This document shows, one piece after another, positions 6,154 through 40,798 of a stretch of 64,000 nucleotides of DNA. Source of the DNA: Pseudomonas furukawaii (GTDB lineage Bacteria > Pseudomonadota > Gammaproteobacteria > Pseudomonadales > Pseudomonadaceae); NCBI RefSeq assembly GCF_002355475.1, contig NZ_AP014862.1:2914001-2978000 (forward strand), given 5' to 3'. Position 1 is the first letter of the stretch. Every line of letters begins with the position of its first letter. The notes below the pieces were generated by a model, which worked only from the letters and a program-made list of their open reading frames with translations, was not told the DNA's origin and did not search any database. The translations under genes were made by a program, and so were the position numbers.

Positions 6154-7305
6154 CTATTTGGTCGTTGACTCTACGTGCTTCTTGGCGCGTTCCCACAAGT
6201 GGTACGCATCATCGACCAGGCCTACGGCGATCGACTGTCGTACTTCTGGATCGCGAAGCAGGGCCAGGTCGTCATTGGAAGGGGCGTGGAAGTTCACATT
6301 CACTTTCGGGTACTGCCAGTGCAGGTTGCCGGTACTCCGAGTCGTGGACGCGATTTCCCGGCTGAGCTCCATTAGGCGCTCTCGGTCTTCGGGGAACTGC
6401 TCGCCATCGCAGTAGTAGCCGCTGTAGAGCCGATGGTCGAGCTCGATGTACACCCCGCCTTTCATGAAGCCAAAGGGGAACGTCATGCCGAAGAATTTGC
6501 TGTTCTTGGCCTTCTTGTAATAGGCAGAAACCGCGTCCTTGGTGGCTGTGATTTCGGGGTTACCCAACTGCTCGTAGTGGCTTGCTTGGTAGGCCTCCAT
6601 GCGCTCCCAAATGTCGAACTGTAGGTCGGCCAGGACAGCCTTGAAAGCATGATTGATGTCGGCGATCAAGAAGAGATTCTCGCCCTGCAGGATCTGCTCT
6701 TTGAGTTTGCTCATGTAGATCTCGCCCTGTTCACTGGATGTCAGTTTTTGGAGTAGCTCGATGTATTGGAAAACGCTTTCCCGTACACCCGGCTCGCGGG
6801 CTACGAGTGGGATGCAATCCTTCAGCCAGGCGATAATCTCGGCTTCGTAGCTGAGTAGCATCACAGGCAGGGACTTGCGGCTCTGCTCGCTGGGCTCGGC
6901 GCCATCCAAGGTGAGGTAGGTGGTCCAAATCTCGCGGTAGCCTTCCGCCTGCATTCGCTGGTGATAGTTCCAGAGTTGATCCTTTTGGTCGCCAGCGTAA
7001 ATCTTGTTCTCAATGATCACGGCCTGCCCGGAAGGGTTGCGGATGAGGATGTCGATGTTCTGGTATTCAGTCAGCACGCTGGCGTTTTCCACATCGAACT
7101 GCTTGATGTCCAGCCGATCCAGCAGGCGCCTGAGCAGCGCGGTGCCCTGATTGTGGGATGCCTTGGGATCTAGCAGGAATGCCAGGAAGCGTGAGTGGAG
7201 ACGCACCTCGTCGCTTGAACTGCGGAGCACGGAGAAGAGATTGAAGCCTGGCGGGCGGTGGTGCTTTGCGCGCAGCAGGGCCACGGTTTGCAGAAAGTCG
7301 TCCAT
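6154..7305 (-). CDS. PD-(D/E)XK nuclease-family protein, 383 aa
   Basis: Contains the core of a PD-(D/E)XK nuclease: E-V-R-L-H-S-R-F-L-A-F-L-L-D-P near residue 33, D85 in N-I-D-I-L-I, and the E-N-K triad (E99, K101) in V-I-I-E-N-K-I-Y-A-G-D-Q. This arrangement matches the PDDEXK_4 group. The rest is helical with no helicase or methylase domain. ATG 7305 is preferred because AAGGACG lies seven bases upstream; an in-frame ATG at 7440 would extend it by 45 poorly protein-like residues. It is a single-gene cargo in the prophage accessory block, where defence nucleases are common. A defence role is inference from family and place. Confidence 0.75.
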   Translation of the reverse strand: MDDFLQTVALLRAKHHRPPGFNLFSVLRSSSDEVRLHSRFLAFLLDPKASHNQGTALLRRLLDRLDIKQFDVENASVLTEYQNIDILIRNPSGQAVIIENKIYAGDQKDQLWNYHQRMQAEGYREIWTTYLTLDGAEPSEQSRKSLPVMLLSYEAEIIAWLKDCIPLVAREPGVRESVFQYIELLQKLTSSEQGEIYMSKLKEQILQGENLFLIADINHAFKAVLADLQFDIWERMEAYQASHYEQLGNPEITATKDAVSAYYKKAKNSKFFGMTFPFGFMKGGVYIELDHRLYSGYYCDGEQFPEDRERLMELSREIASTTRSTGNLHWQYPKVNVNFHAPSNDDLALLRDPEVRQSIAVGLVDDAYHLWERAKKHVESTTK

Positions 7306-7506: not shown

Positions 7507-8739
7507 ATGATGAGCTGGAGCAGGATGACATTGGCGATCGTTCTTGGAGCAAGCCTGGCGGGATGCGCGGGCTGGAGGCCCAGCGGTGCTGAGGCTGAGC
7601 CGCCGTCCGATCCCGCCGTCCAGGTCAGTTCGAAGAATCCCGCTGCCGTTCAGCTGGTGGTAGACCCCAACCTGTTGCAACTGACGATGCCGAAGGGCGC
7701 TGAAGGCTTCATGGGCAGTGCCTGCATCGTTGCGTTCAGGCCGTACCCGGAGGTGTATGCGCAGGCACAGCAGTTTCTGGAGCGTGTGTTTGCCCGGGTG
7801 GATCTGACCACGCCTGACAAGCTCGTTCCCGGCTATTCGGTGGTGCTGGTGCCCAGCGTCCAGAGTTTCAAGTGGAGCTCTGCGGGCCCGACTACCAATG
7901 CTGCAGCCGTGGAGGTGCAGTGGACTGCAGTCAGCGGCGGTAAAACCGCCACCGACAGCGCCTACATCATGGGGAGTTCGTCGCTCGATCGCTGGCACCA
8001 GGGCTGCCATGATGCGACCGTGACGGCGACGGGGGCGGCCAACCGGTCGATCGCTTTCGGCATGGCCAGGCTGGTGGAGAAGCTTGCCGGTGCCCAGCTT
8101 CCTGCCCAGGGGCAACTTGCCCCGCGCAACGAGGCTGAACAGGCCGTGTTTCTCGCATCCATCAATAGCGCGCGTAGCAGCACTTCGGCCTTCACTGATA
8201 CCTCCAAGGGGAATCAGCAGATGATGGATAACACGATGGCCACCTTGGTGGCGCTGCAGGCTATTCAGGCCGCCCAGAACTCAGGCTCGGTGGGTGGCGG
8301 CACGGCAGTGTCTGCGATGCCGGTTGTAGCCACTGCCCAGAGCACGATGTCTACCGGTACCGCCATGGGGATGCCGCAGGTCCAGGGGATGGGGCAGAAC
8401 ACAATCAGTGACGCTCCGGCGCCGGTTCAGGCTGCCACGCCCGTCAGCAGTGGCGGCAACTATCGGGCCGCCCATGAATGTGTGCGCTTTGACAGCACCC
8501 GTGGAGATGGCAGGTACGACCGGATTGTGAACCTCTGCAACTTCGAGATATTCGCGCGCTGGGCAGATCCTGGTTATTGCAGGGATGTCTGCGGTGACTC
8601 GGTGCGTCCGGGTATGAGTGTGACGATAACGCCAGTCAGGCCGCCGGTGAATTTCGTTGCCTGTGAGTACCCGGGCTCGCCGGTCGGCCCCGGTGGGACG
8701 TCCTGGAGGGGCGGTCGCGAGTACCAGTGCCGAGGGTGA
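7507..8739 (+). CDS. Predicted outer-membrane lipoprotein, 410 aa
   Basis: Starts with a lipoprotein signal (L-A-I-V-L-G-A-S-L-A-G-C, lipobox L-A-G-C, cysteine at residue 20). The N-terminal 200 residues read as a compact mixed domain, the middle (about 220-310) is low-complexity A/S/G/M/Q-rich, and the last 90 residues are cysteine-rich (C near 321, 340, 354, 358, 381, 408), suggesting a disulfide-bonded domain. A purine-rich GGAGGC site lies upstream of the start. It is on the plus strand between nuclease and HigA genes in the accessory block; as a surface lipoprotein encoded by a prophage it may alter the lysogen's envelope. No family recognised. Confidence 0.65.
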   Translation: MMSWSRMTLAIVLGASLAGCAGWRPSGAEAEPPSDPAVQVSSKNPAAVQLVVDPNLLQLTMPKGAEGFMGSACIVAFRPYPEVYAQAQQFLERVFARVDLTTPDKLVPGYSVVLVPSVQSFKWSSAGPTTNAAAVEVQWTAVSGGKTATDSAYIMGSSSLDRWHQGCHDATVTATGAANRSIAFGMARLVEKLAGAQLPAQGQLAPRNEAEQAVFLASINSARSSTSAFTDTSKGNQQMMDNTMATLVALQAIQAAQNSGSVGGGTAVSAMPVVATAQSTMSTGTAMGMPQVQGMGQNTISDAPAPVQAATPVSSGGNYRAAHECVRFDSTRGDGRYDRIVNLCNFEIFARWADPGYCRDVCGDSVRPGMSVTITPVRPPVNFVACEYPGSPVGPGGTSWRGGREYQCRG

Positions 8740-29480: not shown

Positions 29481-29556
29481 GCTGGGGTGCCCTCACGGCG
29501 CGGTTGGCGTGGGGGCATGGTGGGAACTGGTGCGGGGAGCGGCAACGAGGCGGACT

Positions 29557-29575
29557 TGTAGCGGGCGAGGTTACA
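29557..29575. promoter_or_regulatory. Ogr-type activator site between O and P
   Basis: TGTA (29557-29560) and TACA (29572-29575), 11 bases between. It is 77 bases upstream of the O start and 49 upstream of the P start, so one palindrome may activate both divergent late operons, or there may be a second, weaker site that I cannot see. Confidence 0.72.
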
Positions 29576-29623
29576 GGCCGGCCGACTACTGAAGGTCGCG
29601 CGCGCGGCGGCAGCATCCGGGCC

Positions 29624-31384
29624 ATGAATGCCGCCGTTGATATCCCGCCCCGAGATGATCGCCGCCAGGCCAAGTTCCTGTACTGGATGGGCTGGCGGGT
29701 GTGCGAGATCGCCCAGCACCTGGTGCTGAACGAGAAGACGCTGCACGCCTGGAAGACTCGCGATGGCTGGGACCGCGCCGACAATGTGGAGCGCATTGGT
29801 GGCGCCCTGGAGGCGCGGCTGGTGCAGCTGATCCTGAAGGACGGCAAGAGCGGCGGCGACTTCAAGGAGATCGATCTGCTGCACCGCCAGTTGGAGCGGC
29901 AGGCGCGCATCCAGCGCTTCCAGGATGGCGGCACCGAAACGGAGCTGAACCCGAAGCTGGCGGCGCGCAACGAGGCGCCGAAGCGCAAGCCCAAGCGCAA
30001 TGACATCGACGAGTCGCTGACCGAGAAGCTGGTCGAGGCCTTCCTCGATGGCTGTTTCGACTACCAGCGCGACTGGTACCGGGCCAGCGACCAGAGAACC
30101 CGCGTGATCCTCAAGAGCCGGCAGATCGGTGCGACCTGGTATTTCGCCCGTGAGGCGCTGATCGATGCGCTGACCACGGGGCGCAACCAGATCTTTCTCA
30201 GCGCCTCGAAGAGCCAGGCGTATCTGTTTCGCGGCTATATCCAGGCCTTCGCCCGTGAGGTGGTGGGCGTGGAGCTGACCGGCGACCCGATCCTGCTGCC
30301 CAACGGGGCGTCGCTGTACTTCCTCGGCACCAACGCGCGCACGGCCCAGGGCTATCACGGCAATTTCTACTTCGATGAGTTTTTCTGGACCTTTCGTTTC
30401 GAGGAGCTGAACAAGGTCGCCTCGGGCATGGCGATGCACAAGAAGTGGCGCAAGACCTACTTCTCCACGCCCAGTTCGATGGCGCACGAGGCCTACAGCT
30501 TCTGGACCGGGGAGCGCTTCAACAAGGGCAAGCCGGCCGCGCAGCGGATCCAACTGGATGTGAGCCATGACTCCCTGCGTCAGGGACGGCTGTGCGAGGA
30601 CCGCATCTGGCGGCAGATCGTGACCATCCTGGATGCGGAGCAGGGCGGTTGCGACCTGTTCGACATCGAGGAGCTGCGCCTGGAGTACAGCGCCGAGGCC
30701 TTCGCCAACCTGCTGATGTGCGAGTTCGTCGACGACGGCGCCTCGATCTTTCCGCTGGCCATGCTGCAGCCCTGCATGGTGGACAGCTGGGAGGCGTGGG
30801 CGGAGGAGTACAAGCCACATGCGATGCGGCCGTTCGGTGACCGCCAGGTGTGGGTGGGCTACGACCCGGCCGAGACCGGCGACAGCGCCGGCCTGGTGGT
30901 GGTGGCGCCGCCGGCGGTTCCGGGTGGGAAGTTCCGCGTGCTGGAGCGGCATCAGTTCCGTGGCATGGACTTCGCCGCCCAGGCCGAGGCGATCCGCAAG
31001 GTGACCCAGCGCTTCTGGGTGACTTACATCGGCATCGACACCACGGGCCTGGGTTCCGGCGTGGCCCAGCTGGTGCGGCAGTTCTTCCCGAATGTGAAGA
31101 CCTTCAGCTACTCGCCGGAGGTGAAGACGCGCCTGGTGCTCAAGGCCTTCGACGTGGTGAAGAACGGCCGCCTGGAGTTCGACGCCGGCTGGACGGACTT
31201 CGCCCAGTCCCTCATGGCTATCCGCAAGACCATCACTGCTGGCGGTCGCCAGTTCACCTACAGCGCCGGCCGCAACGACGCCACCGGCCACGCCGACCTG
31301 GCCTGGGCGCTGTTCCATGCCCTGCACAACGAGCCGCTGGAAGGGCAGACCACGGCCAACACCGGCTTCATGGAGATCAACTGA
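29624..31384 (+). CDS. P: Terminase large subunit P
   Basis: 586 residues (P2 gpP about 590). N-terminal helix-turn-helix (A-K-F-L-Y-W-M-G-W-R-V-C-E-I-A), Walker A-like L-K-S-R-Q-I-G-A-T-W about 160, Walker B F-Y-F-D-E-F-F-W about 245 and nuclease-type G-Y-D-P-A-E-T-G-D-S near 410. ATG 29624 was chosen over the upstream frame start by homology to the P2 N-terminus. Confidence 0.95.
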   Translation: MNAAVDIPPRDDRRQAKFLYWMGWRVCEIAQHLVLNEKTLHAWKTRDGWDRADNVERIGGALEARLVQLILKDGKSGGDFKEIDLLHRQLERQARIQRFQDGGTETELNPKLAARNEAPKRKPKRNDIDESLTEKLVEAFLDGCFDYQRDWYRASDQRTRVILKSRQIGATWYFAREALIDALTTGRNQIFLSASKSQAYLFRGYIQAFAREVVGVELTGDPILLPNGASLYFLGTNARTAQGYHGNFYFDEFFWTFRFEELNKVASGMAMHKKWRKTYFSTPSSMAHEAYSFWTGERFNKGKPAAQRIQLDVSHDSLRQGRLCEDRIWRQIVTILDAEQGGCDLFDIEELRLEYSAEAFANLLMCEFVDDGASIFPLAMLQPCMVDSWEAWAEEYKPHAMRPFGDRQVWVGYDPAETGDSAGLVVVAPPAVPGGKFRVLERHQFRGMDFAAQAEAIRKVTQRFWVTYIGIDTTGLGSGVAQLVRQFFPNVKTFSYSPEVKTRLVLKAFDVVKNGRLEFDAGWTDFAQSLMAIRKTITAGGRQFTYSAGRNDATGHADLAWALFHALHNEPLEGQTTANTGFMEIN

Positions 31385-32373
31385 TGAGCGAAACCACCGC
31401 CCCGTCCTTGAGCACGGCGCTGTTCACCTTCGGCGATCCGACGCCCGTACTCGATGGCCGTGAGGTCCTGGACTACCTGGAGATCTGGAGCAACGGCCGC
31501 TGGTACGAGCCGCCGATCTCACCGGCCGGGCTGGCGAAGTCGGTGCGTGCCGGGGTGTTCCTGCAGTCGGGGCTGAACTTCAAGCGCAACATGCTGGCGA
31601 AGTCGTTCATCCCGCACCGGTTGCTGTCACGCCAGGCCTTCGAGCAGTTCGCCCTGGACTGGCTGACCTTCGGCAATGCCTACCTGGAGATGCGGCGCAA
31701 TCGCCTGAAGGGCAGCCTCGGCCTGCAGCCCGCCCTGGCCAAGTACATGCGCCGGGGCGCGGACCTGGACCGCTACTACATGGTGCGGGGCTGGCAGGAG
31801 GAGCACGCCTTCGAGAAGGGCAGCATCTGTCATCTGCGCGAGGCGGATATCAACCAGGAGGTGTACGGCCTGCCGGAGTGGTTCGTCGCCTTGCAAAGCG
31901 CGCTGCTGAACGAGTCCGCCACGCTGTTCCGCCGGCGCTACTACAACAACGGCAGCCACGCGGGTTTCATCCTCTACATGACCGACGCCGCGCAGAACGA
32001 GCAGGATATCGACGACCTGCGCACGGCGCTGAAAAGCGCGAAGGGGCCGGGCAACTTCCGCAACCTGTTCGTGTACTCACCCAGTGGCAAGAAGGACGGC
32101 ATCCAGCTCATCCCGGTGAGCGAGGTGGCGGCCAAGGACGAGTTCGGCTCGATCAAGAACATCAGCCGTGACGACATGCTGGCCGCGCTGCGGATTCCGC
32201 CGCAGCTGATGGGCATCGTGCCGGTGAACGCGGGTGGATTCGGCTCGATCAAGGATGCGGCGGAGGTGTGGACGGCGAACGAGCTGGAGCCGGTTCAGGC
32301 GCGGCTCCAGCAGGTGAATGAGTGGGTGGGGGAGGAGGTGGTGAGGTTTGGGACATACGGCAATGTAAGTTAG
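31384..32373 (+). CDS. Q: Portal protein Q
   Basis: 329 residues. Y-L-E-I-W-S-N-G-R-W-Y-E-P-P-I, R-R-R-Y-Y-N-N-G-S-H-A-G-F and P-P-Q-L-M-G-I-V-P are P2 gpQ hallmarks. Starts at the base where P ends (TGATG). After its stop the composition drops abruptly to AT-rich cargo sequence. Confidence 0.95.
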   Translation: MSETTAPSLSTALFTFGDPTPVLDGREVLDYLEIWSNGRWYEPPISPAGLAKSVRAGVFLQSGLNFKRNMLAKSFIPHRLLSRQAFEQFALDWLTFGNAYLEMRRNRLKGSLGLQPALAKYMRRGADLDRYYMVRGWQEEHAFEKGSICHLREADINQEVYGLPEWFVALQSALLNESATLFRRRYYNNGSHAGFILYMTDAAQNEQDIDDLRTALKSAKGPGNFRNLFVYSPSGKKDGIQLIPVSEVAAKDEFGSIKNISRDDMLAALRIPPQLMGIVPVNAGGFGSIKDAAEVWTANELEPVQARLQQVNEWVGEEVVRFGTYGNVS

Positions 32374-32537
32374 GCTCCAATCTAAGTTATTTAACCTTTG
32401 TGATATGTGTTCGGAAAATGAAAATTTGAAGAGGGGGAAGCGATGGCTACGAATGGCTATTAGTCTATTGTTTATTTATTCTTGTAAAAACAGGTTTGGC
32501 TGCAGATGTGGGTTCGTGTTATGGCCCTTCGATTGAT

Positions 32538-32582
32538 CTCGGATTGGCATCTTGATGCTTTGCGGAGAGAAGCCAATCCGAG
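32538..32582. repeat. 11-bp inverted repeat between convergent Q and lipoprotein genes
   Basis: CTCGGATTGGC (32538-32548) and GCCAATCCGAG (32572-32582). It lies in the 242-base gap where plus-strand Q transcription meets the minus-strand cargo operon. Could form a bidirectional stop signal, though a classical T-run is missing. I see nothing else in this gap. Confidence 0.5.
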
Positions 32583-32615
32583 CCTGAAATTATAGGGATT
32601 TTCTGTGGTTTAATT

Positions 32616-33431
32616 TTATTGTGGCGGGTTGATTTTTGCATTATTAGTTGCGGGGACCCAATCACCAATGGCTTCTCCACTGCCTGCAGCAACTCCACTT
32701 GGAGATAGTTTTCTAAGTACGCCAGCGATATAGAGTTCCTGGGAGCTTGAAATTTCTAGCGTGTTGTTGCTTGTAAGTTTGATCGCGGCATCTAATGAGC
32801 CTGTTGCAACTTCTGAATCAAGTGCTGCCTTGGCGCTTAAGGCCTGGTCCCCTTCATAGGTTAGAAGTGCATGGAATCCCGTTATCTTCCAGGCTCGACC
32901 AACAATGTAACGGTTTCCCAGCTCTGCGCCTCTCTTGATTGAGCTGTCTGCTGGGAGTTTTGTGAATTCATCGTTGAAGCGGTCCCAGTAGGCATCCTCT
33001 TGAACTATGCTGCTGACACTAACTATGGCGGTTTTTGCGCTGCTAATGCTAGCTTGGACGTCCACGGAAACAGGGTAGACTACTGGTTTGGCATTTGCGC
33101 CAACTTCGAAGTTTAGTCCGTCCTTTACTTTTCCCGAGCATTGGAACTCTCGGTTTGTAAAAAGTACATCGCTGCGTGCGGTTATGTCTGTAAATTGAGA
33201 ACGGGGCCAATAGTCCCCGGTTTCCGAGTCAAGCGCCCATATTGATCCCACTCCATTGGCATTTGCTGCCCCAAAAAAAAGTGGCTCAGACTTATTGAAG
33301 TCACTGACCCCGCACTGCGAAAGAACTTGCTCCCACGATTGCCTAGATACCTCGCCGTTGATTGAGGAACAGCTTGCAATTGTCATGGTTAGGGCTGATA
33401 CGGTAGCGACGGATATGGTTTTTTTGTACAT
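32616..33431 (-). CDS. AT-rich lipoprotein partner of the subtilase (271 aa)
   Basis: Signal M-Y-K-K-T-I-S-V-A-T-V-S-A-L-T-M-T followed by lipobox I-A-S-C (cysteine near residue 21), so it is a membrane-anchored lipoprotein. The mature part has about 250 residues with no recognised domain; Q-C-G near 39 and C near 99 may form a disulfide. AAGGAG lies 8 bases before the ATG. It starts 16 bases after the subtilase stop, so both are one operon. Low GC against the phage, hence acquired cargo. It may be a chaperone, inhibitor or anchor for the peptidase; this is inference. Confidence 0.7.
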   Translation of the reverse strand: MYKKTISVATVSALTMTIASCSSINGEVSRQSWEQVLSQCGVSDFNKSEPLFFGAANANGVGSIWALDSETGDYWPRSQFTDITARSDVLFTNREFQCSGKVKDGLNFEVGANAKPVVYPVSVDVQASISSAKTAIVSVSSIVQEDAYWDRFNDEFTKLPADSSIKRGAELGNRYIVGRAWKITGFHALLTYEGDQALSAKAALDSEVATGSLDAAIKLTSNNTLEISSSQELYIAGVLRKLSPSGVAAGSGEAIGDWVPATNNAKINPPQ

Positions 33432-33447
33432 GGGGCTTCTCCTTTTG

Positions 33448-35259
33448 TTACTTTTTGAATAAAAGCTTTATGCTGATAGGTGCTGCATTAGGGTCTGACT
33501 CTACTTTTGTCCTGCTTTTTAATAACCGTTTGCTAAGAGCCTTCGGCCAATATTCATTGTGGTTCTCAAATGAAATGTCAGTGGCGGCAGAGATCCACGC
33601 GAGTCGAGGTGTCGAGAAACTGGTGCCCCCTCCAGATCCCGGGCATATGGACGACGGAGCGTTGCTTAGCCTTCCAGGGAAGGATGCTATGTTGCTATCA
33701 ATGTTTTGCTCATTCCAAATGTTGTTAATTCTTGCCGATTTGCATGTTAGTCCCCCTGAGCTTTCATCGCTATTCATTACGGTAAAGACTCGGTAACCCA
33801 TCGCGGCCTCGCTAGCAAAGAGACGGCGGGATGCGACGAAGTCTGTTTGGTCGTTCCCAGCGGCGACAAAGACTAGATAAGCAGAAGAGGACGGAAGTGA
33901 TGGGGCTGCACTATATTTTGTGAAGTTCCAAGAAAGGCTTATCCAGAATCTGGCGTGTACCATAGGCTGCCCTGGTCTGCTTACGTCGTCTATTTTTGTG
34001 TAGGCATCGAATACCCTAATCAATCCGCTAGTTACTGGTTCGAAAATGCGTACAACATCGTCCCCTGTTGACCAAGGCTCCTTTAATGCTGTTATTTCTT
34101 TGAGCGCCTTATCGGCATATGCTCGTGCACTTTCAAGAACCCCGTTGGAGGGGGAGTTTGTGTATAGTGCGTGGCCCTTTGCTTGAATTATGAAGTCAAG
34201 CTCTAACAACTCCCTGAAATAGTCTTTGGCTCCAGGTTGTCCGGGGCGTAATGGAATGTAAACAATCTTGATTGTATTCTTTTTGTCTATTGAGGTGAAC
34301 TCTATAAGTGATTGGTAGATCATGCACGCGTGTGGATGGGTAGGAGAGGAGAACGAGCCTTCCGGTAGGCTTTCTTTAAATTTGCTGATTCCGTTTTCGG
34401 GTACTTTGAGGCTGGTTCTTACTTCATTAAAAATTCTTCTGATAGCCTGAAGTGAGAGAGCTTGTTGCTCGTAATTTGGCCATCCGGTGTCGACTATAAT
34501 CAAGTATCTCTCGATGTTCGTGGTAGATTCACTTATTGCTCGAGAAATGATTTCTCGATCATCCTCGGATAAAACTTTTTGCGAGGGATTGTCGCAGTCG
34601 GTTGAGTTGCTGGATATTTGAACTTCGGCTTCGCTTCCTGCAACTATTGATTCGCCAGCCTCAGCTGCACGGCTTATGAGTTGGGCTGCGTCAGTCGCGG
34701 AATAGCGATCAATTCGTCCGTAGTTAAGGGATTCTTGGATTGGATTGCTTATTGTGATGGGCTTTGTGTAGGCAATGCTAGGCGAGTCAAAAGGATATGA
34801 CGTAAAACTTCTAATGATTTTGGAATTGTTGCGCGCGACCGGCCAAGAGGCCTCGGATTCAGAAGGGCGAGTGCTTGTCATTTTGGGGATGTCCGGAATA
34901 ATAATTTTCCCGGCAGGAAAGAGTGTAGCCTCTTTTGCTCCATTTAGAGATAGGACCTTGGCTTCAATGGCCGAGTAGGCCTCCTGGGAGTCGGAGATCC
35001 CAAATCCATATTGGCGTCTAATCAATTCGGAGGGGGATCTGCCAGGAGGATTATTGATTTCCACGACAGGGGCAAGGTCAAGTGTTGATCTCAAGCGATC
35101 TACATCGCTAAATGAGCGGGTCTGTGGTACCCATACTATGGATGAAAGTTCAGACTGCGGTTCGCTGTGTGCACCAGAACAGAATGCTAGAAGAGAGATC
35201 ATTAGATAGTGACGGAAAATCTTCGGCTTTTTTTGCCTGTCCATTGCAAAAGACACCAT
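33448..35259 (-). CDS. Exported subtilisin-like (S8) serine peptidase, divergent
   Basis: 603 residues. Signal peptide (Y-L-M-I-S-L-L-A-F-C-S-G-A-H-S, cut near residue 32). Residues 72-125 resemble a LysM-like fold (S-P-S-E-L-I-R-R-Q-Y-G ... L-F-P-A-G-K-I-I-I-P-D-I-P). The peptidase follows: Asp257 in I-I-V-D-T-G-W, a His near 308-310 (T-H-P-H-A-C-M-I), Asn469 in V-A-A-G-N-D and Ser547 in G-G-G-T-S-F-S-T-P, i.e. all four S8 landmarks in order. The ATG at 35259 is chosen because AGGAG lies 8 bases before it. AT-rich, directly next to Q, where phiCTX carries its cytotoxin gene. Role inferred: conversion, exclusion or toxin. Confidence 0.78.
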   Translation of the reverse strand: MVSFAMDRQKKPKIFRHYLMISLLAFCSGAHSEPQSELSSIVWVPQTRSFSDVDRLRSTLDLAPVVEINNPPGRSPSELIRRQYGFGISDSQEAYSAIEAKVLSLNGAKEATLFPAGKIIIPDIPKMTSTRPSESEASWPVARNNSKIIRSFTSYPFDSPSIAYTKPITISNPIQESLNYGRIDRYSATDAAQLISRAAEAGESIVAGSEAEVQISSNSTDCDNPSQKVLSEDDREIISRAISESTTNIERYLIIVDTGWPNYEQQALSLQAIRRIFNEVRTSLKVPENGISKFKESLPEGSFSSPTHPHACMIYQSLIEFTSIDKKNTIKIVYIPLRPGQPGAKDYFRELLELDFIIQAKGHALYTNSPSNGVLESARAYADKALKEITALKEPWSTGDDVVRIFEPVTSGLIRVFDAYTKIDDVSRPGQPMVHARFWISLSWNFTKYSAAPSLPSSSAYLVFVAAGNDQTDFVASRRLFASEAAMGYRVFTVMNSDESSGGLTCKSARINNIWNEQNIDSNIASFPGRLSNAPSSICPGSGGGTSFSTPRLAWISAATDISFENHNEYWPKALSKRLLKSRTKVESDPNAAPISIKLLFKK

Positions 35260-35674
35260 TCTTGTGTCTCCTCTCAAAGTTATTAGTAACTTTGAATTAA
35301 TCCTTCTTCTTGATCAGGGTCGGCTCGTGGTTGAAATGAAGAATTCATTGCTTCCACCAGTTCGCCGGCCTCTCATTGCCGAGTGTCTTGTTTCGAATCG
35401 CCTCTGTTAAATTGCCTTTGCTTACGGATGGTGAAAGAGCTACTGAGAGCTTTCAAGTTCCCTGAGTTTAGTGTCTAAGCTAAAGCTCTTGATGGGATTC
35501 CATCTATCCCAGTCAAGCACCAGTGGAACACATGTGAAATTCTTTAATGTGAATTTCAGTCGAGAATTTCGACCGTTCGTCTCCTAAGAGCAGTGCAGAG
35601 GACTCTCGATAAGATTTTTGCTGACTTGTCGTAAAGTGGTTAGGGCGCTATCAATGCAGTTATTGCTATAAGGG
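35260..35674. other. AT-rich intergenic stretch upstream of subtilase
   Basis: About 415 bases between antirepressor B (ends 35675) and the subtilase start. It should hold the cargo operon promoter. No open frame with a credible start, no repeat and no tRNA is visible. The composition changes back to GC-rich at about 35690, marking the edge of the imported segment. Confidence 0.4.
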
Positions 35675-36475
35675 CTAGAAAATTCGGGGCCATTCGAATA
35701 ACCAGCACCTGATGCTTTTGCCTGCGATCCGGCTATCCACCGGGTGGTTCTTGCGCAGGCAGCGCGGGTTCTGACTCTGCCAGAGCGCGTGGCGCAGCGG
35801 GGTGTCGAAGATCAGCGAGTGGCCGTGTTGAGCCAGCAAGCGGGTCAGCTCGGGCAGGTTGACCGCCAGTACGTCTGGCGCTTTTGCGTGGTTGTAGTCC
35901 ACGCCCTTGCCGTCGAGAAAGGCCAGCGCCTCCCAGAATGCCTTCAGAACATCTGGAGCCTTGGGCGCGGAGCGGCCAATGCTATCGATATCGGGAGTAG
36001 GCAGGCCCAAAGCATCAGACACGTCGGCGAGCTGTTGGTGGATCAGATTGCGCAGCTCAGGATCGCGCGTATGAAAGAGCTCTTTGCCGAGGGAGAGGCG
36101 CAGGCGGTGGTTGGCGATGCGAGCCGCTTCGGCCGAGCGATTGCCCGTCTGGTAGCTGCCGGCTTTACGGAGAGCCGGAAGTACTTCGTCGCAGACCCAC
36201 GACTCGAAGCGCTTGGCCTCTTCCTTTCGGCTCTTGATGATCAAGCGGTAGAGGTTGCCTTCGTTGATGAAGGCCAGCTCGCGTCGCTGGCCTCCCGAGC
36301 TGGTATATCGTTTCGATACACCAGCCTCACGGCAGTGGTCTTCGACCGTCTGGCTCGTGTTGTTGTATCCGAGCACCTCGCAGACATCCTTGGCGCAGAA
36401 CCAATGCTCGCCATCTTCCTCAGTCATCACGCGCACTGGCAGTGCTTCAAACTCAAACAGTACGGGCAAGCTCAT
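35675..36475 (-). CDS. Antirepressor B (BRO-N N-terminal domain)
   Basis: 266 residues. Residues 1-105 are a BRO-N domain (V-L-F-E-F-E-A-L-P-V-R-V, W-F-C-A-K-D-V-C-E-V-L-G-Y, F-I-N-E-G-N-L-Y-R-L-I, R-F-E-S-W-V-C-D-E-V-L-P). The remaining 160 residues (T-R-D-P-E-L-R, H-Q-Q-L, G-L-P-T-P-D-I-D-S, then F-W-E to R-C-W-L-F) are homologous to antirepressor A. The start overlaps the preceding ORF's stop (ATGA), coupling its translation to the C4-controlled ORF. Probable antirepressor of the XRE repressor or of another prophage's repressor. Confidence 0.82.
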   Translation of the reverse strand: MSLPVLFEFEALPVRVMTEEDGEHWFCAKDVCEVLGYNNTSQTVEDHCREAGVSKRYTSSGGQRRELAFINEGNLYRLIIKSRKEEAKRFESWVCDEVLPALRKAGSYQTGNRSAEAARIANHRLRLSLGKELFHTRDPELRNLIHQQLADVSDALGLPTPDIDSIGRSAPKAPDVLKAFWEALAFLDGKGVDYNHAKAPDVLAVNLPELTRLLAQHGHSLIFDTPLRHALWQSQNPRCLRKNHPVDSRIAGKSIRCWLFEWPRIF

Positions 36476-36657
36476 GCCTTCTCTCCTTGTTCCATGGCCG
36501 AGTACCGCGACAGCGCCTGGGCAGAGCGGCGGATGAAGCACCGGTCGGCCTGGCTGAGCTGGCGATAGTACTGCAATAGCACCTGTTCATCGGGCGTATG
36601 CAGCAGGCAGTAGGGGGCAAGGCTGGCGAGCGAGCGCCGTTCGGTCCGTATGCTCAT
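36472..36657 (-). CDS. Small ORF in the icd position, cassette B (61 aa)
   Basis: 61 residues, M-S-I-R-T-E-R-R-S-L-A-S-L-A-P-Y-C-L-L, with no resemblance to its cassette A counterpart. Shine-Dalgarno AGGAG at 36670-36666; bases 36668-36674 are complementary to the C4-like RNA's hairpin loop. ATGA overlap with antirepressor B implies translational coupling as in P1 icd-ant. Confidence 0.7.
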   Translation of the reverse strand: MSIRTERRSLASLAPYCLLHTPDEQVLLQYYRQLSQADRCFIRRSAQALSRYSAMEQGEKA

Positions 36658-36705
36658 GGCAAAGACTCCTGTGAGGCGGTGCGTTTTCCGCTCCCCAAAC
36701 GCCAA

Positions 36706-36785
36706 TTTGGGTGGGCGGAACCGTGCGGGTTGGCGTACCGGTCACAGGGCCGGTGTGCCCGAAGGCACCCACGCACGGCCCGCCC
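36706..36785 (-). ncRNA. C4-type antisense RNA, cassette B
   Basis: Minus-strand fold: closing stem GGGCGG and CCGTGCG (36785-36772) with CGCACGG and CCGCCC (36727-36713); hairpin 1 GTGCC-TTCG-GGCAC (36768-36755); hairpin 2 CCGG/CCGG with 8-base loop CCCTGTGA (36749-36742). The loop is complementary to the ORF's Shine-Dalgarno region (36668-36674). The 3' end (36718-36706) is complementary to 36688-36699 in two blocks. Fold and pairings match cassette A although the paired bases differ, as expected for a C4 RNA family member. Confidence 0.83.
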
Positions 36786-36806
36786 ATAACAGGCTTGCCA
36801 TGCTGC

Positions 36807-37186: not shown

Positions 37187-37512
37187 GATTTTCAGGAAGG
37201 CCATCGGGAAAAGGTAATTTTGGGAATTTGGTCTTTTAGCCGTGCTGAAAGGCGCGTGGCACTAGGTGTTGAGTACTTACCCGGCTGGGTAATTCTGGGT
37301 AATTTTTTAGGCGGGGCAGGGTGAGGTTATTGATTTATAAAGATTTTTTATTTTACGAAAAATACCCGGCCTTCGGTAATTGACTTACCATCCACTTACC
37401 CAAAAATTACCTTCAATATATTCTTCTAAGTCATTGAATCTATTTGATTAAATGTGATCTGGGAAAGTCGATTACCAGGATTACCATTTTCCGATGGCCT
37501 TCCTGAAAAATC
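37187..37512. repeat. Long inverted repeat enclosing an AT-rich GGTAAT-iteron region
   Basis: Arm 1 (37187-37218) and arm 2 (37480-37512) are inverted copies of about 32 bases differing by single-base indels and one substitution; a 19-base core (TTTTCAGGAAGGCCATCGG) is identical. The 260 bases between are AT-rich and hold many GGTAA(T) repeats in both directions (for example 37213, 37289, 37300, 37375, 37391, 37428, 37472). The position next to attR suggests integrase arm or excisionase sites; an iteron-type origin is another option. No gene is visible in this stretch. Confidence 0.65.
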
Positions 37513-37646
37513 GGAACTGGTAAATCGGGGGAGGTTTTCTCTCTCCACGCGTTCACGTCTGGGAACACTCTGGGAACAGATTTCCTCATTTTCGATTTGC
37601 AGAGGCCCCGGATTACGCGGGCTCCAGAGGCGCAAGGGCTTCCGGC

Positions 37647-37674
37647 ATGAGTTCGAATCTCACCGCTTCCGCCA
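37647..37674 (+). other. attR: attR: 3' end of a tRNA-Ser gene
   Basis: TGAG-TTCGAAT-CTCA forms a T-arm, followed by CGCTTCC, discriminator G and CCA, i.e. the 3' end of a serine tRNA of the GGAAGCG type. The 5' part of a tRNA is absent upstream, so this is the fragment left at one prophage end; the intact tRNA should be at the other. phiCTX also integrates in a tRNA-Ser gene. Confidence 0.8.
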
Positions 37675-37724
37675 TATATGTGTGTTTCCGCTGGTTCCCT
37701 TGAACAGCGGCAGGTGAAGCTCAG

Positions 37725-37756
37725 AATTGGGGGCCTTCGAGAGAAGGCCCCCAATT
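37725..37756. terminator. Bidirectional terminator after the tRNA-Ser fragment
   Basis: 14-bp stem AATTGGGGGCCTTC / GAAGGCCCCCAATT with loop GAGA, followed by TGTTTC on plus. Probably the original terminator of the tRNA-Ser transcript, now just right of attR. Confidence 0.75.
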
Positions 37757-37773: not shown

Positions 37774-38001
37774 TCATTGCGGGGCGGCTTGTTGTCGCGC
37801 TGGGGCGAAGCCAGTTCGGGAATTAAGGCGCTCGCATTCGCTTGCCGCCTTCGACTCATCGTCATGCTGGCCCCCCACGAAATTACCGGTCGCCTTGTCG
37901 ATGATCCGGTACCAGTAGGCCTCAAAGCCTGACTTCTCGTTCTTCCTGTCACCGCTGGGGCGTGAGCGTAGAACCCTTTTCACCGAGAAGCGTGCACTCA
38001 T
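37774..38001 (-). CDS. Hypothetical host protein, 75 aa
   Basis: 75 residues: basic N-terminus, then F-E-A-Y-W-Y-R-I-I-D-K-A-T-G-N-F-V-G-G-Q, which reads like a short beta-sheet domain, and a helical end. A GGAGTTCC sequence precedes the start. No recognised family. First gene on the chromosomal side of attR. Confidence 0.5.
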   Translation of the reverse strand: MSARFSVKRVLRSRPSGDRKNEKSGFEAYWYRIIDKATGNFVGGQHDDESKAASECERLNSRTGFAPARQQAAPQ

Positions 38002-38549: not shown

Positions 38550-38987
38550 TCGCGGTCATTGTCATATCCAATGTGTGTCTGCAAGGGCTGCGCGTGAGAT
38601 TCGTGGCGGGTCTCTCTCAGGGTTGTTACTTGATAACCCGGCAGTCATGTCTGAGGGGATGGGCTGGCCAAGGGGCTCCGAGTAACCTTGCCAGATGCTG
38701 CTTCAATGCAGGTAAGGCCGCTCCGAAATCTCTGCCGTGTCCTCGGTTTCTTCCGCGCTGTTTCCTAAGCATCACCTCGTGGTGCCTCGTGCAGACTATC
38801 GCGCCATACATCGTCAGCGGTTCCTGGGGTTCTGGGGCATTGCATTTCTGTCGGATCGTTTGACGCTGTTACTTTGACGTCTCGAACAACTCGCGCTAGG
38901 TCATTCCCCGGTCATTTGATAATGTGAGCCTCATTTGATGAACATGCCTGCTGCTGCGGTGGCGCGCGATGCACAGAGAGGTGTCGC

Positions 38988-40205
38988 TTGATTAGGGTGC
39001 TGGTGGTCGATGACCACGATCTGGTACGAATGGGGATCACCCGCATGCTGGCCGACGTCGATGGCTTGCAGGTGGTGGGGCAGGCCGACAGTGGCGAAGA
39101 GGCCTTGAAGAAGGCTCGAGAGCTCAAGCCCGATGTGGTGCTGATGGATGTGAAGATGCCAGGCATCGGAGGGTTGGAAGCGACACGCAAACTGTTGCGT
39201 CGTGTGCTGGGCAGCAAGAACTTCTTTCCCCAGGTGGCCATCGAGGAGGAGGCAGGGGACATCCTTTCCGCCTTCATAGGCCAGTACTACCTCGGAAACC
39301 AGGAGCGCGATCTGCCTTCGGAGCTGATCGTGAACACCACCCATGAGGATTTTCCCACCCTCGTGGCCGCGATCGCGGAGCTGCGCGGGCGGGAAATCAG
39401 CATCAGCCATAGCGTAAGGGCCACCCGGGCGCGCTGGCAGCAGTTGGCCGTCACCAATGCGGAGCAGGCGCTGGCCGCGCGGCTGGCGAATCGCCAACAC
39501 ACGGCTGCCCGTTTCGATGCGCTGGCGGAGGCGCTTGGCCTGGACGAGGCACCTCAGCGGCTGGAGTGCTATGACATCAGTCACTCCAGCGGCGAGGCGA
39601 CCGTGGCCTCCTGCGTTGTATTCGGTCCGGAGGGTCCGCTGAAGTCGGACTATCGCCGCTACAACATCGAAGGCGTCACGGCGGGCGATGACTACGCGGC
39701 GATGCATCAGGCATTGACCCGTCGTTTCAGCAAACTCAAAGATGGTGAGGGCAAGTTGCCCGACGTCCTGCTGGTGGACGGCGGCAAAGGACAGCTGGCT
39801 ATGGCGCAGGAGGTCCTGGAGGAGCTGGCGGTGCCAGAACTCATTCTGCTTGGGGTGGCCAAGGGTGTGACCCGCAAGCCAGGCTTCGAGACGCTCTATC
39901 TCAACGATGCCGCCCATGAGTTCACCTTGCCGGCGGACTCTCCCGCTCTGCACCTGATCCAGCAGATCCGCGACGAAGCGCACCGATTTGCGATCACCGG
40001 CCATCGGGCGCGTCGCGGAAAGGCGCGTCGTACATCCAGCCTGGAAGAGGTGGCCGGGGTAGGGCCCAAGCGTCGTCGCGAGCTGCTCAAGCATTTCGGT
40101 GGGTTGCAGGAGTTGAGCAGGGCCAGTATCGAAGAAATTGCCAAAGCACCGGGCATCAGTAAAAAGCTGGCGGAGTCGATTTATGCCGCCTTGCACAGCG
40201 AGTAG
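38988..40205 (+). pseudogene. gacA-uvrC: In-frame gacA'-'uvrC deletion fusion
   Basis: Residues 1-71 are the start of GacA (TTG start; [14 protein letters not shown], phosphoacceptor D54 in [21 protein letters not shown] is kept). From residue 72 ([11 protein letters not shown]) it is UvrC from about its residue 275 to the end, including the RNase-H-like nuclease ([17 protein letters not shown]) and two HhH motifs. GacA loses the rest of its receiver and its LuxR-type helix-turn-helix; UvrC loses the GIY-YIG nuclease and UvrB-binding region. In pseudomonads gacA lies directly upstream of uvrC, so a single deletion of roughly 1.3 kb explains it. Neither protein should work normally. Confidence 0.9.
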
Positions 40206-40237: not shown

Positions 40238-40798
40238 ATGAATATTCCTAACCTGCTCACTGTTCTGCGCGTACTGCTCATCCCCGTTTTCATATTCCTC
40301 TTCTACCTGCCGTTTTCCTGGAGCTACCTGGCTGCCAGCGTGGTCTTCGCCATTGCAGCGGTCACCGACTGGTTCGATGGCTATCTCGCCCGTCGTTGGC
40401 AGCAGAGCACGCCATTCGGTGCCTTCCTCGACCCGGTCGCGGACAAGCTGATGGTGGCGGTGGCCCTGGTGTTGCTGGTGGAGGAGCATCACAACCTGTG
40501 GTTGACGCTGCCAGCAGCCATCATCATCGGGCGTGAGATCGTGGTCTCCGCGTTGCGAGAGTGGATGGCTGAACTGGGCGCCCGTGCGCATGTAGCGGTG
40601 TCCAATCTTGGAAAGTGGAAGACGGCCGCCCAGATGCTGGCCCTGGTGATCCTCCTGGCCAATCCGCCGCTTATCAATTTCTGGGTGGGGCTGGGTTATT
40701 TCCTGCTGATCCTGGCAGCGGCACTGACCCTCTGGTCGATGCTGCACTACCTCCTGGCCGCCTGGCCGCACCTGCGGCCAGACCCGCAAGAAAAATAA
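40238..40798 (+). CDS. pgsA: CDP-diacylglycerol-glycerol-3-phosphate phosphatidyltransferase
   Basis: 186 residues, multi-pass membrane protein. Contains the CDP-alcohol phosphotransferase motif D-G-x2-A-R-x8-G-x3-D-x3-D (D-G-Y-L-A-R-R, then G-A-F-L-D-P-V-A-D). Makes phosphatidylglycerophosphate, the first committed step to phosphatidylglycerol and cardiolipin. Follows uvrC as in P. aeruginosa, 32 bases downstream. Confidence 0.95.

Follow-up and report, generated by a model that had tools for sequence, protein, structure and literature searches.

In the genome of Pseudomonas furukawaii KF707, a soil bacterium used in the study of PCB breakdown, the beginning of gacA and the end of uvrC are joined into a single open frame. 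The window, by which we mean the whole stretch of 64,000 nucleotides that was analysed, carries this frame on the forward strand at 38988–40205, where it runs uninterrupted from a TTG start to a TAG stop and encodes 405 amino acids, GacA codons 1–71 being followed in frame by UvrC residues 274–607. The arrangement is very probably the product of one spontaneous deletion, about 1,252 bp long, that would have made the strain Gac-null and cost it UvrC as well, with selection for loss of Gac as the likely driver. The features of the locus and its surroundings are collected in Table 1.

Table 1. Features of the fused locus and of the prophage genes upstream of it (window positions).
Feature	Position	Strand	Remarks
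Terminase large subunit	29504–31384	+	Prophage
Anti-repressor with Bro-N domain	35675–36541	−	Prophage
C4 antisense RNA	36707–36791	−	Prophage
Retained gacA upstream region with the bases ahead of the TTG start	38868–38987	+	GAGAGGTGTCGCTTG common to L028, L029 and L111
gacA remnant: first half of the receiver (codons 1–70 plus two bases from codon 71)	38988–39199	+	
Junction base T, from gacA or uvrC	39200	+	About 1,252 bases absent here relative to most congeners
uvrC remnant: residues 274–607 and stop; RNase H-like 5′-incision nuclease and (HhH)2 DNA-binding part	39201–40205	+	
pgsA, next gene of the gacA–uvrC–pgsA operon, 186-codon open frame	40238–40798	+	Matched in 102 of 102 loci, not all independent

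The region was compared by BLAST with 19 relatives, 17 of them congeners and two from the same family. In each the alignment splits at or near 39199–39201 (the left piece stops at 39193 in L025, and the right piece begins at 39208 in L026), and where the window has one base between the gacA and uvrC blocks all 19 relatives have 1,250–1,322. The interval is 1,253 bases in 15 of the 17 congeners, 1,250 and 1,251 in the other two (L013 and L027), and 1,256 and 1,322 in the two relatives from outside the genus. Set against the single base in the window, these lengths mean that the window lacks some 1,252 bases (1,249–1,252 across the congeners; 1,252 in 15 of 17); the missing segment was re-measured in seven loci. 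The last shared bases of gacA are TTGCG and the first of uvrC CGTGTG, and as the T between them can be assigned to either gene, some one or two bases would be shared at the ends, judged from the relatives. In the congener L028, GacA has 214 codons and UvrC 607, and the UvrC block begins at residue 274 (uvrC start at 7182, block start at 8001 of that locus), so that the fusion is without GacA codons 72–214 and UvrC residues 1–273. The original prediction, an in-frame deletion between gacA and uvrC with UvrC resuming at about residue 275, thus fits the comparison with all 17 congeners.

In P. syringae, gacA, uvrC and pgsA are described as a predicted operon in the available text of PMC6786584. 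Of 102 loci compared here, 101 have gacA and uvrC next to each other on one strand, the two blocks lying 1,247–1,347 bases apart; the loci are not all independent, some being the same contig fetched twice, and in the remaining one, L043, the contig ends before gacA. At the protein level, the C-terminal half of UvrC was matched in all 18 genomes of the genus, and the match starts from residue 1 only in KF707. It begins at residue 70 or 71 in the other 17, within open frames of 612–713 codons, and a GIY-YIG match lies within a uvrC-sized frame in every one of them. When the fusion was used as the query against 57 relatives, 56 were matched (the exception, G046, is 81% complete), and all matches except its own start at query residue 48 or beyond. 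A search of 398 genomes of the family matched 394, the lowest start outside KF707 being residue 58 among the matches listed.

Sequence features that could have promoted the deletion were sought around its ends. No long direct repeats are present within 30–40 bases on each side of the ends in the relatives, and folding of the join gave nothing unusual (z of −0.34, equalled by 68 of 200 shuffles, for the joined and not the ancestral sequence). The genes of a prophage, P2-like by its gpP-like terminase, lie upstream of gacA at about 29504–36791 of the window; its recognised features end at 36791, sequence in common with some of the relatives resumes near 37814, and neither breakpoint is inside, so a role for the prophage was set aside. 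Beside the prophage genes is a stretch of low GC content on the reverse strand (32616–35277; 48–50%, against 57–70% in the other 2-kb steps) that holds two genes, neither of which had a match at the thresholds applied in Pfam, PHROGs and PADLOC (the 271-codon frame was searched minus its first codon). The product of the 271-codon frame resembles a lipoprotein, and the 609-codon frame has a GTSFSTP stretch that we take to resemble subtilisin-type proteases. The short frames at 37426–37754 look, by eye, like those produced when a tRNA gene is read in antisense, and a prophage may attach at this site; ARAGORN reported no tRNA there.

Pfam searches recovered parts of both parent proteins in the fused frame. 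Response_reg aligns at residues 4–71 over positions 1–66 of 111, UvrC_RNaseH (PF22920) at 72–164 over positions 25–115 of 116, UvrC_RNaseH_dom (PF08459) at 181–336 over positions 2–159 of 159, and HhH domains, HHH_5 among them, at 351–403; the HhH part also matches the solved structure 1kft. Against NCBIfam, the N-terminal end scored 96.3 bits with PRK09483 (UvrY/SirA/GacA; cut-off 280; positions 1–75 of 217) and the C-terminal end 282.1 with TIGR00194 (UvrC), just under the cut-off of 285.45; both fall below the curated cut-offs, as fragments would be expected to do. Likeness to nine intact GacA proteins ends after fusion residue 71. The aspartate of VLMD is D54, as counted in the fusion translation, and D8, D9 and D54 (acidic pocket and phosphoacceptor) are all present and invariant in a 10-row alignment. 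The first 71 codons are therefore those of GacA with its TTG start and D54, as had been proposed, and the description of the RNase H-like nuclease and HhH motifs as intact-looking also held.

The GacA output domain and the GIY-YIG and UvrB-binding regions of UvrC had been predicted to be missing. All are absent: no LuxR-type DNA-binding output domain is among the six Pfam families matched in the fusion, and Pfam found in the frame neither the GIY-YIG domain, responsible for 3′ incision, nor the UvrB-binding UVR domain, which the genome search did not find at the locus either. That account understated the loss, as the second half of the receiver has gone too and a complete receiver domain is absent from the Pfam matches. 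In the UvrC part, D196, D235, D264 and H332 are invariant in an alignment of 20 rows; by our own mapping we equate them with E. coli D399, D438, D466 and H538, residues listed in a reference title in PMC7835731. A structure model of the fusion had a mean pLDDT of 66.5 and a pTM of 0.48 (20 alignment rows, none over the receiver part). Values below 50 were obtained at residues 48–92 around the join, and from residue 171 to the end 23 of 24 ten-residue blocks lie at 62–90, block 341–350 being at 34.

We then consider whether intact copies reside elsewhere. The genome searched comprises two contigs of 6,183,134 and 59,815 bases (6,242,949 in all) and is listed as 100% complete. PMC6563109, in its available text, gives 6,242,949 bp for the KF707 chromosome, which is the sum of both contigs of this assembly, and 59,819 bp for the plasmid, four bases from the 59,815 found here. 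At E 0.001 the fusion protein matches 23 places in its own genome. One is its own locus; the other 22 match only within fusion residues 2–124, at 30–46% identity, and we read them as receiver domains. No other place in the genome is gacA-like over the length of the fusion, and the protein search found no second UvrC place. The GIY-YIG profile had one match, elsewhere, in a 113-codon frame, and no Cho-like GIY-YIG protein was found in the genome. One UVR match exceeded the cut-off, in a 703-codon frame that we read as UvrB from this domain and the frame length, and two more fell below it. The lost segment, represented by 1,248 bases from the congener L009, is absent from the genome except for a 40-base match at 83%. 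A translocation or second copy is thus unsupported by the UvrC, GIY-YIG, UVR and lost-segment searches, and the search for another gacA or uvrC that the original prediction had proposed yielded no second full copy of both.

The partners of the two proteins appear to have been kept. UvrA is encoded by a 982-codon frame and a GacS-like kinase by one of 931 codons, both without internal stops; the kinase scored 824.5 bits, under the BarA model cut-off of 890. RsmZ (102.3 bits) and RsmY (94.5 bits) cover their whole models. GacS, RsmY, RsmZ and UvrA therefore look intact by these measures, and the coding capacity of gacA has been lost while the GacS-like kinase, RsmZ and RsmY remain in the genome. 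No decay of GacS, RsmY or RsmZ was seen, so the genome searches offer no further confirmation that Gac has been lost.

Selection on the joined pieces was estimated from pairwise omega, with pairs of dS below 0.3 or above 3 dropped; all 17 KF707 pairs were kept, and of 136 other congener pairs 127 (gacA), 133 (uvrC) and 131 (pgsA). Median omega in the KF707 pairs compared with the other pairs was 0.016 against 0.030 for the gacA part, 0.032 against 0.035 for the uvrC part and 0.032 against 0.046 for pgsA. For the uvrC part the median dN was slightly higher with KF707 (0.0424 against 0.0357), as was dS (1.305 against 0.960). Private amino-acid changes in KF707 numbered 0 in 71 codons of gacA (0–3 in other congeners), 6 in 334 codons of uvrC (0–8) and 3 in 186 codons of pgsA (0–10). 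Pseudogene decay was rejected, there being no excess of amino-acid change in the fused parts. A rough Poisson bound, with an assumed terminal dS of 0.3–0.6, limits any neutral phase to less than about 3–6% of the KF707 branch; the intact control pgsA yields a nearly equal bound, and the pieces can only be said to look constrained to the degree of an intact gene. Since selection is not relaxed in the joined pieces, either the deletion happened recently or constraint acts on the fusion. Compared with the divergence of the species the event is probably young, and perhaps only a single KF707 stock carries it.

On the reading that we favour, a single spontaneous deletion would have had its breakpoints within gacA and within uvrC, at sites sharing at most a couple of bases (judged from the relatives, the ancestral sequence not being known). 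It would have taken 143 codons from the 214 of GacA and 273 from the 607 of UvrC, and the remainder would have been joined in frame by a one-in-three chance; this reading does not require the join to be in frame, a point that counts against it. Because only half of the receiver and no LuxR-type output domain are left, we infer that KF707 is Gac-null, GacS being unable to switch on rsmY and rsmZ through the fused GacA. According to the available part of PMC7835731, UvrC cuts on the 3′ side with its N-terminal GIY-YIG domain and on the 5′ side with its C-terminal domain. The likeliest reading of the UvrC part is that it keeps the 5′-incision nuclease and HhH motifs and is without 3′ incision and UvrB binding. 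With no GIY-YIG domain, no UvrB-binding domain and no Cho-like substitute found, the strain would be deficient in nucleotide excision repair, and raised UV sensitivity is a reasonable expectation, a raised mutation rate a more speculative one. The accessible text of PMC5924801 calls spontaneous gac mutants frequent in Pseudomonas and says that they often come to dominate fermentation cultures; this agrees with the original statement that GacA loss arises readily in pseudomonads, and is the reason for regarding selection for Gac loss as the likely driver, with uvrC loss as a passenger. Also counted against this reading is a KF707 motility paper that reports swimming, swarming and mutants, and in whose available text ‘gac’ does not occur (PMC4912153).

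It is improbable that the true locus is intact and that 1.25 kb was lost in assembly or finishing. For KF707, 454 and HiSeq reads were assembled and the gaps were closed afterwards by PCR and Sanger sequencing (PMC6563109, available text), which counts in favour of such an error; the frame across the join is nevertheless clean and open, and pgsA and the region upstream of gacA align normally, the BLAST alignment extending upstream of the gacA start to 38859–38887 in L109, L110 and L111. The PCR- and Sanger-finished state of the genome, together with the lack around either end in the relatives of a long repeat able to collapse, makes an artefact unlikely.

Less probable still is that the fusion is a working protein under selection, in which the start and upstream region of gacA drive the UvrC C-terminal nuclease to make the 5′ cut or nicks elsewhere. 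The pieces are in frame, the RNase H domain model is near-complete, the HhH part is present, the four putative catalytic residues are invariant and there is no relaxed selection; but absence of relaxation is expected equally from a recent deletion, and the join is modelled with low confidence. The lack of a Cho-like GIY-YIG protein in the genome searches also counts against it. A fusion of maltose-binding protein with the last 314 residues of E. coli UvrC reportedly restored UV resistance, a rescue that is said to have been attributed later to Cho making the 3′ cut. By sequence the KF707 fusion retains the same UvrC half as that construct, and as no Cho-like protein was found in KF707 no rescue would be expected. 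We give similarly little weight to the idea that the chimera, expressed from the gacA start, acts as a free RNase H/HhH nuclease, leaving excision altered, partly working or deregulated and not null.

A double loss by spontaneous deletion in one strain or stock is thus the most likely account, and one that matters to those who work with KF707. The literature searched, most subscription papers lying outside its scope, contains no paper treating KF707 together with uvrC, and among the papers listed no title or opening of an abstract reports this gacA–uvrC deletion; in the available text of one KF707 paper, PMC6726644, gacA occurs in the references only. PMC6563109 counts the strain among the best characterised of those that use biphenyl, and it has served in genetic work on motility (PMC4912153) and respiration (PMC5492768), as far as the available texts state. 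If the stocks in use carry the deletion, data on biofilm, motility, secondary metabolism, stress and mutagenesis would come from a strain that probably lacks Gac function and excision repair, and a congener would then serve better as wild type. The deletion would also offer a natural test of the cost of Gac loss with repair lost too, since one event hits two neighbouring genes.

Among known systems, the spontaneous gacS and gacA mutants of Pseudomonas likewise lose GacS/GacA by spontaneous mutation (PMC5924801 and PMC7695008, available text); KF707 differs in that one deletion also takes much of uvrC and makes an in-frame chimera. The Tn5::gacA mutant AC811 of P. syringae DC3000 resembles KF707 in that one gacA lesion lowers uvrC function, and gacA mutants of several species are described as UV-hypersensitive, likely by polarity on uvrC (PMC6786584, available text). 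AC811 is a laboratory insertion with polarity on uvrC, whereas in KF707 part of each coding sequence is gone. Fusion residues of about 176–403 match the UvrC C-terminal halves 2nrt, 3c65 and 8b0q (E of 1.8e-40, 1e-39 and 2.6e-37); those are fragments made for crystallography, whereas the KF707 piece forms the end of a natural chimera and is preceded by half a receiver.
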